Part shown: one piece after another, positions 16,864 through 26,142 of the stretch
Position numbering within the stretch: the first letter of the stretch is position 1
Layout: each line of letters starts with the position of its first letter
Source of the DNA: Spirochaetales bacterium
Lineage (GTDB): Bacteria > Spirochaetota > Spirochaetia > Sphaerochaetales > Sphaerochaetaceae
Direction: 5' to 3'
Assembly: GCA_018433865.1 (NCBI GenBank)
Contig: JAHDQJ010000002.1
Coordinates: 124,001-188,000 of the forward strand
Length of the DNA stretch: 64,000 nt
Made by a program: the position numbers and the translations under genes
The notes under the pieces: generated by a model
The model's database searches: none
The model's input: the letters and a program-made list of their open reading frames with translations, nothing else
Told to the model about the DNA's origin: nothing

Positions 16864-18639
16864 TCACTCCCCCACATAGCCGACGAGGCGGCAGAAACGC
16901 TCCGTGTATGCGGCGATCACATCGATGCTTTCCTGCCAGAATGACTCGCTTGTGATATCACATCCGATCGAAGCGGTTACCGCCGGAGCCATATCCTGAC
17001 CGGTGCGAAGCAGCAGTTCGTCGTACCTGCCACCGAATCCCTCTGGATTCCGTTCATATGCACGATAGACACCAAGTCCGAACAACTGTCCGAATGCGTA
17101 GGGGAAGTTGTAGAAAGGAACCTCGCTGCTATAATAGTGCCCCTTCACCGCCCACATGTAGGGATGGAGCGCATGCTCATCCAACGCATCCCCGTAGGAA
17201 GCCTTCTGTGCATCGAGCATCGCCGAGGAGAATTGCCCTGCCATGAGATCCCCCTGCACACGCTGGGCAAACACCTCTCGCTCGAACTTGAATCGGCTGA
17301 GGATGTCGACGCACGTCTGGGTGGCATCCTGGAGGAAGCTTTCGATGAGCGCAACCTGCATGGGAGTATCGGCATCTTGCAACGCACCTTGGAAAATGAT
17401 GAACTGACTGAAGATCGAGGCAGTCTCCGCGAGGGTCATCGGGTAGTGACGCAACAGTGCCGGCAAGCCGCTGGTCACCTTGTCATGATAGGCATGCCCA
17501 AGCTCATGCGCTATCGTGGAAACTCCATCGAAACTGTGATCGAAGTTCGCGAGGATCCTCGTCTCCTTGCGTAGCGGGAACGAGGTGCAGTAGGCGCCTC
17601 CGACTTTCCCCGCACGCGGCTCACTGTCGATCCACTGCTCATCGAAAGCCAGCGCAGCGAATTCACCGAGAGGCTGATGGAAACGTGTGAAGTTTTCGAT
17701 GATGAATGTGCGCGCCTCATCGTAGGAATATCTCTTGTCAATAGTTCCCATCGGTGCGAACAGATCATAGAACGCCAGTTTCTTCATGCCAAAGGCATGG
17801 GCTTTCGCCCGCAAATACTTGCGGAATACCACAAGGTTATTCTCGATGGTCCCGATCAAGGCCTCAAGGACCTGGTCGGTGATCCTGGCCTGCATCGTGG
17901 CCCGTTGCAACGGGTCTCGGTACCCGCGACGCCGGTCCAAGGTTATGGTGGTTCCCTTCACGCCATTCAGTGCGTAGGCGAATGCGATCTCATGCTGTTT
18001 CCATACGGAAAGTTCGGCTCGGAACGCTTTCTCCCGTACCGCCCGATCAGCTTCGAACGCAAGAGCACGGAGCTGGATGACCGTCTTCCGCTCACCGGTC
18101 GTGCTGTCCCACAGGCAATCGGCGTTGGAGGAGACCGCCTCCTGCAACCTGCCCCATGCGTCAGTACCGCTACGACTCAGGTCCGCGGCCAAGGCCTCCT
18201 CGGCCTCACTCATGGTGTGTTCCTGCTCCTTGAGCAGTTCTTCCAGGACAAACCGGAACTTGGTGAGATCCTGATCCTCTGCGAGAACCTTGCGGACCTC
18301 CTCCTTCCTGCCAGAGAGCACATTGAGCAGCTTGACGTGTATGCCCTTCAGCTCGAGGGAAGCCTCTTCGACCTTGTTCAAGGCTCGCATTGCCTTGCCG
18401 TCATTGGTATTGACGGTCAAGAGGGCGTTGGTATAGGCCATGAGGGTCTCATAGGTATCGAGAGCCTCTTGATAGGTCTCCAGCACACCGACAAGCCATC
18501 CGGGGACCTCGGTATCGGATATGAGCCGGGTTTCCAGCTGTGCTACCAAGAGGGGAAGGGCGGCAAGATCGTTGGCGAATTCACGGCTATCCAAGCCAGG
18601 ATAGATCGAATCGAGATTCCAATGCGGCAACTGGGACAT
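16864..18639 (-). CDS. pepF: Oligoendopeptidase F (M3 family metallopeptidase)
   Basis: Cytoplasmic zinc oligopeptidase of 591 residues, normal for PepF. The zinc-binding HELGH motif lies in STIAHELGHAYHD, with downstream family motifs such as AETASIFSQ (second zinc ligand Glu). The ATG at 18639 has AAGGAG 8 nt upstream and begins at the usual family position (MSQLPHWNLDSIYPG); the upstream open frame is promoter DNA. It is preceded by its own promoter covered by a long palindrome, so expression seems regulated independently of the two-component operon. It probably degrades peptides imported by the Opp system. Confidence 0.93.
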   Translation of the reverse strand: MSQLPHWNLDSIYPGLDSREFANDLAALPLLVAQLETRLISDTEVPGWLVGVLETYQEALDTYETLMAYTNALLTVNTNDGKAMRALNKVEEASLELKGIHVKLLNVLSGRKEEVRKVLAEDQDLTKFRFVLEELLKEQEHTMSEAEEALAADLSRSGTDAWGRLQEAVSSNADCLWDSTTGERKTVIQLRALAFEADRAVREKAFRAELSVWKQHEIAFAYALNGVKGTTITLDRRRGYRDPLQRATMQARITDQVLEALIGTIENNLVVFRKYLRAKAHAFGMKKLAFYDLFAPMGTIDKRYSYDEARTFIIENFTRFHQPLGEFAALAFDEQWIDSEPRAGKVGGAYCTSFPLRKETRILANFDHSFDGVSTIAHELGHAYHDKVTSGLPALLRHYPMTLAETASIFSQFIIFQGALQDADTPMQVALIESFLQDATQTCVDILSRFKFEREVFAQRVQGDLMAGQFSSAMLDAQKASYGDALDEHALHPYMWAVKGHYYSSEVPFYNFPYAFGQLFGLGVYRAYERNPEGFGGRYDELLLRTGQDMAPAVTASIGCDITSESFWQESIDVIAAYTERFCRLVGYVGE

Positions 18640-18762: not shown

Positions 18763-20133
18763 CTAGAGATCCAGCTGGAACTCCGCGATCTTGTTGATCA
18801 ACGTCCGCCGGGAGATTCCCAACTCCTCCGCCGCCCTGGTCCTGTTTCCCTCCCAACGGTGCAACGCCCTGACGATCGCCTCGATCTCCATCGCCTTCAG
18901 GCTCCTGGGTTCTGCCGTGCCGTCGGAGGGAACCACGATGACCGTCGACCCTCCCGTCTCGTTTCCCGGACGCGAGATGCTCTGGCGCAGTTCAAGCACA
19001 TCGACACCGATGAGCGGCCCATCCGCGAAGATCACCGCCCGTTCCAGGATATTCTCCAGTTCCCGTACGTTCCCGTAGAACGGATGGGTCTTCAAGGCTT
19101 CGATCGCTTCAGAAGAGAGTCCCTCGACACGGTTTCCCATCTGACGGTTGAGCTTGTTCAGGATGACTCCTGCGAGAAGGGGAATATCTTCCTTGCGATC
19201 ACGCAAGGGGGGCAACTCGATCCGCACGACGTTCAATCGGTAGAAGAGATCCTCACGGAAAGATCCTTCCCGCACCATCTCCTCGAGGTTCTTGTTCGTA
19301 GCGGAGATGATCCGCGCGTTGATGGGAATCGGGGAGGTTCCTCCCAATCGGGTGATCTTCCTCTCCTGGAGGACCCGGAGCATCTTCACCTGCAACGTAA
19401 GAGGCATGTCACCTATCTCATCGAGGAAGAGCGTCCCTCCGCTCGCCAGTTCGAACATCCCGATCTTCCTGCCGACAGCACCGGTGAACGCCCCCTTCTC
19501 ATACCCGAACAGTTCGCTCTCCAGCAGATTCTCGGGCACTCCGCCGATGTTGATCGCGACGAAGGGACCTGATGCAAGCGCAGAGACCGAGTGTATCTGC
19601 CTCGCGACGACCTCTTTGCCCGTACCGCTCTCGCCGGTGATCAGCACAGTGGCGGGTGAATCGGCGATCCTGGAGATCACTTCCTTGATCCTCCTCATGG
19701 GAGGAGAGTCACCGACCAGCGAGTCGTCGATTCCCTCATTGGAACGGGATTTGGTCTCCACGAGGGCGCGCAGTTGCTGAGCCTCGATAAGTTTTCTCAA
19801 TCGGATCGTCAGTTCCTCGGGGTCGAAGGGCTTCACGATGTAGTCCTGAGCTCCCTCTTTCAGCGCAGTGACGGCATCGTGAATCTCTCCATGGGCACTG
19901 ATCATGATGATGGGCATGCGGAATCCCTCCTGACGGATCCAACGGATCAAGCTGATCCCATCCATCCCGGGCATTTTCAGATCGATCAGGCAGGCATCAT
20001 AGATGTGCTCGCGCAAGAGTCTCTGTGCGGAGAGTCCATTCTCCGCTCCGTCGCTTTCAAGTCCCTCGAGTCCAAGATACTTGCGCATCAATTCCCGGAT
20101 ATTATGCTCATCATCCACAATCAAGATTCTCAT
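18763..20133 (-). CDS. NtrC-type sigma-54-dependent response regulator
   Basis: Transcriptional activator of 456 residues: receiver domain with phospho-acceptor Asp51 and Lys101; AAA+ domain with Walker A GESGTGKE (167-174), the sigma-54 contact loop GAFTGA (214-219) and Walker B GGTLFLDEIGD; C-terminal Fis-type helix-turn-helix (RTRAAEELGISRRTLINKIAE). With the GAFTGA loop intact it should activate RpoN promoters. It is the last gene of the efflux operon, 9 nt after its cognate kinase, and a -24/-12 promoter lies in front of the first gene of that operon, so autoregulation of the whole unit is likely. Confidence 0.94.
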   Translation of the reverse strand: MRILIVDDEHNIRELMRKYLGLEGLESDGAENGLSAQRLLREHIYDACLIDLKMPGMDGISLIRWIRQEGFRMPIIMISAHGEIHDAVTALKEGAQDYIVKPFDPEELTIRLRKLIEAQQLRALVETKSRSNEGIDDSLVGDSPPMRRIKEVISRIADSPATVLITGESGTGKEVVARQIHSVSALASGPFVAINIGGVPENLLESELFGYEKGAFTGAVGRKIGMFELASGGTLFLDEIGDMPLTLQVKMLRVLQERKITRLGGTSPIPINARIISATNKNLEEMVREGSFREDLFYRLNVVRIELPPLRDRKEDIPLLAGVILNKLNRQMGNRVEGLSSEAIEALKTHPFYGNVRELENILERAVIFADGPLIGVDVLELRQSISRPGNETGGSTVIVVPSDGTAEPRSLKAMEIEAIVRALHRWEGNRTRAAEELGISRRTLINKIAEFQLDL

Positions 20134-20142
20134 GTCAGCCCC

Positions 20143-21447
20143 TTACGGATGTTCTGCGGGGAGGATGACCTCTGCGATCGTGCCTCCTCCATCCCGCGCA
20201 TACAACTTCAGATTCCCATTCTTTGCCCTGATGAACTGTCGGCAGATTGCCAACCCTATGCCTGATCCGTGGATCTTCGTGGTGAAGAACGGATCGAAGA
20301 TCTTTTCCATGTTCTCTTCGGGAATCCCATCACCCCTGTCCCGCACGTAAATGTGGAGCATATGCCTCCGATCCCTCGTCACCTCCACTTCGACCGCAGG
20401 ATCGTGAGAACTCGTGCTCTCAAGCGCATTCTTGATCAGATTCTCGAACACCGACCGTGCGCGATCCGGATCGAAGGAAACGATCGCCCGATGCAGGGAT
20501 CCGGGAACGATACGGACCTGGTCAAGGAATGTGTGCCGAAGAGAGTCGATCATGCCTACCAGGTCGATCTTCTCCGGAGTTCCGACCGGATTGCGCAGGA
20601 AATCGGAAACCTTGTTCGTCAGCTGCGTAAGACGCTGGACCTCCTGGTCGATCACCATCAGGTCCTCGCGTGAAGACGAGGGGAGGGTCTTTTTCAGCAA
20701 CGCCATCTGCAACGTGATGGCACTGAGCGGATTCTTGATCTCATGCGCCAGCGTTCTCGCGGCTTCTCCGAGATTCACCAGACTCTCCTGTTTGGCGAGT
20801 GTCTCCCGGTACTTCCGGTTGCTCCGGTAGATGTTGTAGACCATCAGGTGGAACGCCAGCAACCCGAGGACTGCCGCGACGCTGAAGATGCGGACCATCA
20901 TTACCTTCCGGTAGTACTGTTGTCCGTCGAAGAGGATATACAGGACATCGGGGAATGTCAGGGGAGAGGGCAAGTACCCATCCTCCTCCAACAGGAAGTC
21001 ACCCGTCTCGACCTGGATCGTCAGGCGGCTGAAACGGATGTATTCGATCATCCCGGTTCCTTTGTTGTAGGTGGCGACCCCCTGGTTCCATTGGGAAGCT
21101 CCCCGGCTGCGCCAGATATCGTTGAACCGCTCGAGCGGAAGGGTGTTGGGGACCGAACCCAATCCGAGCCGGAGTCTCCCATTGTTTGAGTAGACACCGA
21201 TTCCCCGCACATTCCCCTCCTCCATCGCTGCCAGGGCACGGGAGTGCTCCTCTTGCAAAAGCATCAAGGTCGAGGAAGCGAACCCTCTCTCCGCCTCGAA
21301 CTGCATGAGGGTGTTTTCCTTGTCGATGATCAATTGCGAAAGGAAAAGGACCAGCGTGACCAAGAGGGCGAAGAGGAACACCAATCCTCCGACCACGAAT
21401 ATCTGCTCCTTGCCTTCGACAAACGACCATTTTCTCCGGCTACTCAT
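20143..21447 (-). CDS. Membrane sensor histidine kinase (NtrB/HydH-like)
   Basis: Kinase of 434 residues that should phosphorylate the adjacent NtrC-type regulator. Membrane segments at about 17-40 and 184-206 flank an extracytoplasmic sensing domain of about 140 residues with no family I recognise. The H-box AHEIKNPLSAI (His235), N-box VFENLIKNALEST and glycine-rich boxes DRGDGIP, FFTTK, GSGIGLAI are intact. Its start overlaps the end of the MacB-like permease gene by 8 nt, with GAGG inside that gene. Linkage to an efflux pump suggests it senses an envelope-active compound or envelope stress. Confidence 0.93.
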   Translation of the reverse strand: MSSRRKWSFVEGKEQIFVVGGLVFLFALLVTLVLFLSQLIIDKENTLMQFEAERGFASSTLMLLQEEHSRALAAMEEGNVRGIGVYSNNGRLRLGLGSVPNTLPLERFNDIWRSRGASQWNQGVATYNKGTGMIEYIRFSRLTIQVETGDFLLEEDGYLPSPLTFPDVLYILFDGQQYYRKVMMVRIFSVAAVLGLLAFHLMVYNIYRSNRKYRETLAKQESLVNLGEAARTLAHEIKNPLSAITLQMALLKKTLPSSSREDLMVIDQEVQRLTQLTNKVSDFLRNPVGTPEKIDLVGMIDSLRHTFLDQVRIVPGSLHRAIVSFDPDRARSVFENLIKNALESTSSHDPAVEVEVTRDRRHMLHIYVRDRGDGIPEENMEKIFDPFFTTKIHGSGIGLAICRQFIRAKNGNLKLYARDGGGTIAEVILPAEHP

Positions 21448-22621: not shown

Positions 22622-23296
22622 CTACTCCTCCAATCGTCCGTCACGCACGCGGACCTGCCTTCTCGCACGCATCGCGATATCGTGGTCATGCGTGACCAAC
22701 ACCACGGTACGTCCTTCGGCGTTCAACTCCTCGAACAGCTCCATGATTTGTCGCCCGGTATTGCTGTCCAGCGCACCGGTAGGCTCATCCGCGAGCAGGA
22801 TCGAGGGATTGTTCACCAACGCCCGGGCGATGGCGACACGCTGTTTCTGTCCCCCGGAAAGCTCATTCGGCCGGTGTTTCATCCGATCGGCCAAGCCTAC
22901 CCGCTCCAGTGCCGATCTGGCCCGTTCCTTCCTCTCCTTGACGCTCACACCCGCATAGAGGAGCGGTGTCATCACATTCTCCAATGCATTGATCTTCCCC
23001 AACAGATTGAACTGCTGGAAGACAAACCCGACTTTCTGGTTGCGGATGAAGGCAAGTTCCGCCTCGCTCATTCCCAAGGTCTCCTCGCCATCGATGCTGA
23101 TGATGCCGTCGGTAGGGGTATCAAGACACCCGATCAGGTTCATCAGGGTCGACTTGCCCGATCCTGAGGGACCGGTGATTGCGGTGAACTCACCTTCGTG
23201 TATCACCAGGGTCACCCCATCGAGAGCCTTGACGACGAACTCTCCCATGAGGAAATAGCGACGGACATCATACAGGCTGATCACTTCCCGTTCCAT
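22622..23296 (-). CDS. MacB/LolD-type ABC transporter ATP-binding protein
   Basis: ATPase of 224 residues powering the adjacent FtsX-like permease. Walker [10 protein letters not shown], signature LSGGQKQR and Walker [13 protein letters not shown] are intact, and the sequence is of the LolD/MacB class. The ATG at 23296 is used because AGGAGAG lies right before it; an upstream ATG at 23353 lies in the MacA-like gene and lacks support. It is the third gene of the efflux operon. Confidence 0.94.
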
Positions 23297-25913: not shown

Positions 25914-25956
25914 ACGTGTTCCTTTGCCAATGGTTTCGCTCAACATTCGCATGGTA

Positions 25957-25972
25957 TGCAGGTAACATGCCA
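25957..25972 (-). promoter_or_regulatory. Sigma-54 (-24/-12) promoter of the efflux/two-component operon
   Basis: The minus strand reads TGGCATGTTACCTGCA, against the consensus TGGCACG-N4-TTGCA: the invariant GG and GC are present and exactly 10 nt apart. The start site would be about 33 nt before the ATG at 25913. The operon encodes a GAFTGA-containing activator, which makes a chance match unlikely. Confidence 0.75.
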
Positions 25973-26006: not shown

Positions 26007-26080
26007 CACACAGGAAATCCACACTTGGCAGGCAAATCCCACGGACCGTACACCTGTGCAGAACTTTCACACGGAATCCC
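26007..26080 (-). promoter_or_regulatory. Candidate activator-binding repeats upstream of the sigma-54 promoter
   Basis: Two similar blocks on the minus strand, GGATTTCCTGTGTG (26020-26007) and GGGATTCCGTGTG (26080-26068), are 61 bp apart, close to six helical turns, and 35-110 bp upstream of the -24 box. That is the usual distance for NtrC-type enhancer sites. The surrounding stretch is rich in TGTG/CACA. Confidence 0.35.
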
Positions 26081-26142
26081 TGTGCTCCACGGTGTGCACC
26101 TTCTTCGCTTGTCATCCGAATGTGAATATTTTTCACACCTGC

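Follow-up and report, generated by a model that had tools for sequence, protein, structure and literature searches.

A predicted sigma-54-dependent exporter operon in Sphaerochaetaceae shares its enhancer-like sites with a putative small RNA antisense to secreted-gene starts

Small RNAs (sRNAs) that depend on sigma-54 are known from a few Proteobacteria, and some vibrios carry several copies of one of them, Qrr. RybB, MicA, and VrrA are envelope-linked repressor sRNAs that are controlled by sigma-E and act on the mRNAs of envelope proteins. VrrA has been described as under sigma-E control (PMC4108314). GlmY (with QseE/QseF, also called GlrK/GlrR) and Qrr (with LuxO) are each controlled by sigma-54 together with a response regulator, and GlmY has been tied to the cell envelope (PMC7073468; PMC10162802). 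The system described here resembles GlmY and Qrr in that the promoter of a predicted sRNA has a −24/−12 box and, upstream of it, predicted sites for an NtrC-family regulator. It differs from them in that the sRNA, from the family Sphaerochaetaceae, matched no Rfam covariance model (GlmY, Qrr, or any other) at E ≤ 1, in that the operon of the regulator also carries an exporter, and in that Hfq was not found with the Pfam model (PF17209). A further difference lies in the 5′ end of the RNA, here called the head, which is antisense not to specific mRNAs but to a Shine-Dalgarno sequence and signal-peptide start of generic form. With RybB, MicA, and VrrA it would share an envelope link and a 5′ end predicted to repress envelope-protein mRNAs, but the sigma factor and activator are different ones, and the target class would be set by shared signal-peptide codons. 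A literature search found no paper on a Sphaerochaeta sRNA or sigma-54 regulon in the collection searched, which is not the whole literature.

The window (the whole stretch of 64,000 nucleotides analyzed, from a Spirochaetales bacterium of this family) contains six minus-strand genes separated by short or negative gaps, with domains called using Pfam and NCBIfam (Table 1). Domains and tight spacing confirm what a sequence-only reading had proposed, an operon that ends in a histidine kinase and a GAFTGA-containing NtrC-type regulator. The exporter is like MacAB-TolC and other MacB-type systems in having a TolC-like duct, a MacA/HlyD-like adaptor, a permease with MacB_PCD and FtsX domains, and a MacB-like ATPase. 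It differs from the E. coli type in that MacB is split in two (246 and 253 bits vs. an equivalog cut-off of 966), the equivalog cut-offs for both MacA and MacB are not reached, and control is predicted to be by sigma-54. That such control is uncommon was checked only weakly, against a paper on the Desulfovibrio sigma-54 regulome in which the terms efflux, ABC transporter, and TolC do not appear.

The regulator combines a REC domain, an AAA+ domain with GAFTGA, and a Fis-type helix-turn-helix (HTH), the architecture of group I NtrC-family enhancer-binding proteins. In this architecture and in its place beside a kinase it is like AtoSC, ZraSR, and NtrBC, but it scores below the AtoC, NtrC, and ZraR equivalog cut-offs. 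All 25 orthologs of the regulator that were compared keep the phospho-acceptor Asp and GAFTGA, and all 21 kinase sequences keep the phospho-His. The sensing domain of the kinase had been described as unassigned, and this agrees with our search, in which no Pfam domain covered the first ~210 residues; a single-sequence AlphaFold model of the sensor region had a pLDDT of 36 and was too poor to use. The M3-peptidase (PepF)-like gene that follows the regulator often stays beside it in relatives and possibly belongs to the same operon.

Table 1. Features of the predicted operon, its promoter region, and the two putative sRNA genes. Positions without a prefix refer to the window; G000 marks contigs of the same genome. 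The start of the macB-type ATPase gene was picked by a Shine-Dalgarno rule.
Feature	Position	Strand	Remarks
Predicted sigma-54 −24/−12 promoter TGGCATGTTACCTGCA	25957..25972	−	Kept in six genera (three families)
Enhancer-like palindrome TGTGAAAAATATTCACA	26121..26137	−	165 nt upstream of box; top score in 1.218 Mb
Enhancer-like palindrome TGTGAAAGTTCTGCACA	26055..26071	−	99 nt upstream of box; second score in 1.218 Mb
tolC-like outer-membrane efflux protein, 479 aa	24474..25913	−	Pfam OEP, E = 5e-6
macA/HlyD-like periplasmic adaptor, 381 aa	23307..24452	−	HlyD_D23, RND_mfp
macB-type ABC ATPase, 224 aa from internal ATG	22622..23296	−	ABC_tran
macB-type permease, 393 aa	21440..22621	−	MacB_PCD + FtsX
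Membrane histidine kinase	20143..21447	−	HisKA + HATPase_c only
NtrC-type response regulator, REC-AAA+ (GAFTGA)-Fis HTH	18763..20133	−	Pfam/NCBIfam; proposed activator of operon promoter and sRNA genes
M3-peptidase (PepF)-like gene, 3′ of regulator	16864..18639	−	Named by similarity among loci
sRNA1 (predicted)	G000:C18:381585-381691		Paired palindromes and −24/−12 box upstream
sRNA2 (predicted)	G000:C48:22418-22522		Paired palindromes and −24/−12 box upstream

Read on the minus strand (25972-25957), the box upstream of tolC has GG (25971-25970) and GC (25959-25958) exactly 10 nt apart in a TGGCAYR-N4-YTGCW context, and it lies 43 nt from the tolC ATG (25913), so the spacing first proposed is exact and the distance close to the ~45 nt then given. 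The transcription start predicted 12 nt after the GC is ~25946, which falls within the interval named earlier (25940-25950). The box scores 17.4 of 19.8 bits, a value that is relative only because the sigma-54 matrix is an approximation of the published consensus. Motif frequency was dropped as evidence, since counts did not exceed chance either in the window (4 matches with at most one mismatch vs. 1.97 expected) or genome-wide (17 exact matches to a relaxed pattern vs. 20 for a reversed control). What makes a chance box unlikely is its position, as a box of at least 15 bits would occur 20–80 nt before a given start with P ~6e-4, and what makes it convincing is conservation together with the enhancer-like sites. 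The genome was also searched for rpoN, the absence of which had been named as telling against the proposal, and the gene is present (G000:C18:226598-227074, E = 1.4e-52).

Comparison with relatives bears out both the gene order and the conserved −24/−12 box that the sequence-only reading had suggested looking for in spirochaetes. Eleven further genomes of the family have the complete order tolC-macA-macB-macB-kinase-NtrC, and other families of the class share the part from macA to the regulator. Six genera, from three families, have a box ahead of the operon, whose first gene varies. It stands before tolC, 34–48 nt from the start, in this genome, two congeners, G007, G017, and G021 (genera g1, g6, g16, and g20); before macA, the first gene in G029 of another family (f6); and before the kinase, the first gene in G027 of a third (f4). 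The box before tolC is absent in six tolC-first relatives, and autoregulation is therefore not universal. Loss of rpoN was excluded as the cause of box loss in some genera, as all 41 relatives examined have the gene. These six relatives, the chance-level motif counts, and a weak sigma-70-like match at 26177-26149 would fit a box that is a chance match in an operon read from a sigma-70-type promoter. This is very unlikely, given that the region has no excess of sigma-70-like matches over shuffles (6 vs. 4.5) and that the box, with palindromes upstream of it, keeps its place before tolC in four genera and is found ahead of the first gene in two further families. Box, palindromes, and rpoN all support the sigma-54 claim, and the promoter at TGGCATGTTACCTGCA is very probably real.

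The two palindromes upstream of the box are 17 bp long and TGTGAAAnnTTKCACA-like, both are conserved in two congeners, and they lie where upstream enhancers of a sigma-54 promoter would be predicted. A version with a 16-nt period gave no matches because its spacing was wrong; the 17-nt form fits. The palindrome matrix was built from nine sites, all from tolC promoters, and the ranks of TGTGAAAAATATTCACA and TGTGAAAGTTCTGCACA in Table 1 are those of sites in the training set; palindrome and target scans covered 1.2 (1.218) of the 2.9 Mb of the genome. The third-best palindrome in this sequence is outside the training set and lies upstream of sRNA1 (C18:381585). Among 94 boxes of at least 12.5 bits in the 1.218 Mb, only three have two palindromes upstream: those of the operon, sRNA1, and sRNA2. 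Operon promoters that were not used for training also carry palindromes, at 130 and 158 nt in G029 and at 96 nt in G027. The fourth-best palindrome in the 1.2 Mb (TGTGAAGGTCATGCACA, G000:C29:119605-119621, 20.5 bits) had no box of at least 12.5 bits downstream in the range scanned.

The palindromes are probable enhancer sites. We infer that the regulator of this operon binds them because a kinase-regulator pair is what the palindrome-bearing operons share, and the assignment stays at that strength because the genome encodes five full sigma-54 enhancer-binding proteins. Positive autoregulation, also predicted earlier, is well supported by the occurrence of palindromes before kinase-regulator operons in three families.

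The two sRNA copies in this genome are unlinked, and each is predicted to be ~105 nt long with an intrinsic terminator at its end. In the first 28 sRNA cores, GG-N10-GC lay 12–17 nt upstream without exception (28/28), and all 82 distinct sRNA promoters, which had been collected without reference to the promoter, have a box of at least 12.5 bits. Palindromes of at least 8 bits occur in 94% of these 82, in contrast to 15.6% of control windows, and at 18 bits the figures are 61% and 6%; the true background is probably lower because some control windows include the promoter of a tandem neighbor. Compensatory changes affect 8 of the 12 pairs in the terminator stem, and the fold has a z of −5. The near-fixed distance from box to 5′ end, the enhancer-like sites, the conserved structure, and the terminator are together what a sigma-54-dependent sRNA would be predicted to have.

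These results change the picture of a “self-contained” sense-and-expel module, since the same palindromes and box stand before a gene found family-wide, and the widest predicted output of the regulator is the sRNA. Some relatives, moreover, keep the kinase-regulator pair and the sRNA but lack the box at the operon or exporter genes beside it. A self-contained module would mean that the regulator controls its own operon only and that the sRNA is driven by another enhancer-binding protein with a similar site; this we regard as improbable. Five full activators are available, and the sRNA was found without a detected regulator ortholog in G005, G016, G051, G058, and G075, including G016 at 94% completeness. 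The association between regulator and sRNA within the family was not significant (42/10/5/4, Fisher P = 0.19), in part a consequence of the draft state of many genomes and of the presence of both in most. Against this, a matrix made from operon promoters only finds the sRNA promoters here and in many genera, paired palindromes are confined, among the 94 boxes, to those of the operon and the two sRNAs, and four of the five genomes are either incomplete (G005 85%, G075 74%) or have regulator-bearing congeners (G051, G058).

The sRNA element was found in 48 of 61 genomes of the family by DNA search, with up to four tandem copies, and in 47 of 61 by a covariance model of the transcript alone. Beyond the family, a 148-genome class-wide sample yielded it in G027 only. 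The exact core pattern, searched in genomes of 84,980 species, gave 51 stretches, all labeled as spirochaetes and mostly as Sphaerochaetaceae, Spirochaetales, or Spirochaetia. Among the carriers is Sphaerochaeta halotolerans (L241), a relative that can be cultured. Some genomes (L116, L117, and L244) carry three differing tandem copies, with heads CAACATTTTTTTCATACTCCTCC, CAACAGTTTTTTTCAAACCTCC, and CAACCGTTTTTTCAACCTCC, and each copy has its own box and palindrome; such copies may have diverged in target choice.

In G027, as at sRNA1, the element precedes a gene that is rlmE-like, judged by its reading frame. An rlmE leader, or a short open reading frame on the opposite strand (SD-ATG-AAA-AAA-CTG-TTG...), could account for the element without any sRNA, and in this genome the reverse complement can indeed be read as a Shine-Dalgarno sequence with MKKLLLCTH and a stop behind it. 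Either is hardly credible: the T-run varies from 6 to 8 between copies, which shifts the frame; box, palindromes, and terminator are all in the sRNA orientation, with a fixed distance from box to 5′ end; the terminator precedes rlmE; and tandem copies each repeat promoter and terminator.

The conserved 5′ end of the putative sRNA, ACAGAGCAACAGUUUUUUCAUACCUCCUUUAG, is the reverse complement of CTAAAGGAGGT-ATG-AAA-AAA-CTG-TTG-CTC-TGT, and is antisense to AGGAGGU-AUG-AAA-AAA, a Shine-Dalgarno sequence plus the start of a signal peptide (MKKLLL). Because the gap between Shine-Dalgarno and AUG is only ~1 nt in this complement, real targets would need a bulge. Duplexes were scored against each start region of 1070 genes called in 1.2 Mb by a simple rule. 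With gene starts and exported-protein calls from simple ad hoc rules and mRNA structure ignored, exported-like proteins made up 10% of all 1070 genes, whereas their share of predicted targets was 45% in the top 20 and 30% in the top 50; when start regions were trimmed, these shares were 40% and 34%. This enrichment was equaled by none of 69 cores in which the head was shuffled and the anti-Shine-Dalgarno tail left intact, and by none of 69 that were shuffled throughout. In another genus (G023, 0.8 Mb, 693 genes), exported-like proteins rose from 8% overall to 60% of the top 20, which was reached by 0 of 198 shuffles. The operon’s own tolC ranks 537 of 1070 although its product is exported, which would let it escape the sRNA; as one gene, this is only suggestive.

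A real sigma-54 transcript need not act as a repressor of the whole class of secreted proteins. With its CCUCC it may instead mimic the 3′ end of 16S rRNA and act on ribosomes, or the RNA may have one or a few specific targets. The ACCUCCUUU stretch is similar to the anti-Shine-Dalgarno end of 16S rRNA, shuffled heads still give duplexes with start regions, and the most distant copies (G027) retain only UUUUUUCAUACCUCCU. We nevertheless consider this rather unlikely, since the exported-gene enrichment depends on the head (with the tail left intact, 0/69 and 0/198 head shuffles reach it) and the part kept in G027 is UUUUUUCAU, antisense to AUGAAAAAA. Class-wide action through SD-AUG-AAA-AAA-CUG-UUG, with export throttled globally by this sRNA family while the same regulator induces the pump, is the reading that we favor by a little.

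Several other boxes in this genome and one in a relative lie near regulatory genes. Box TGGCATGATTCTTGCA (G000:C34:38041-38056; L070 10042-10057) directly precedes a gene for a sigma-70-family factor (Pfam) and is near a second kinase-NtrC pair (C34:32196-34738). In G015 (L064), box TGGCACGCTTTTTGCA and a 22-bit palindrome precede a sigma-factor gene two genes upstream of the kinase-regulator pair of that genome. By analogy with RpoN-RpoS of Borrelia, a cascade from RpoN to another sigma factor is possible at these two boxes. Between box TGGCACGGTTTCTGCT (G000:C18:359491-359506; L072) and a short gene for a sigma-54 activator, which is on the opposite strand, the distance is 184 nt; with a frame that is PspA-like by position only, the arrangement is of the phage-shock type. 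Box TGGCACGTGAATTGCA (G000:C43:61322-61337; L071) is just 3′ of a PAS-type sigma-54 activator gene and is followed by P-loop/ferredoxin-like genes.

Our main reading, to which we give a probability of roughly three in four from sequence evidence, joins an autoregulated sigma-54 operon to an sRNA that is under the same regulator and represses exported-protein mRNAs. Sigma-54 RNA polymerase would transcribe tolC, macA, the two macB-type genes, kinase, and regulator from the box, and the phosphorylated regulator, bound at both palindromes, would open the promoter and so stimulate its own synthesis. The same regulator would turn on the two unlinked sRNA copies (C18 and C48), whose RNA, if made as predicted, would pair through its head with the translation start of exported-protein genes, from the Shine-Dalgarno sequence over the start codon into the first codons (AUG AAA AAA ...), and would probably block translation. 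Since its enhancer-like sites recur at an sRNA antisense to secreted-gene starts, the operon seems to belong to an envelope response; the whole would then be a response to envelope or export stress, with efflux raised and synthesis of secreted proteins lowered. The analysis yields a binding motif, a predicted transcription start, and a ranking of targets. If the reading is right, a spirochaete lineage without a recognizable Hfq would have its own envelope-linked circuit, and there would be a testable rule by which one RNA addresses a whole class of proteins through signal-peptide codons.
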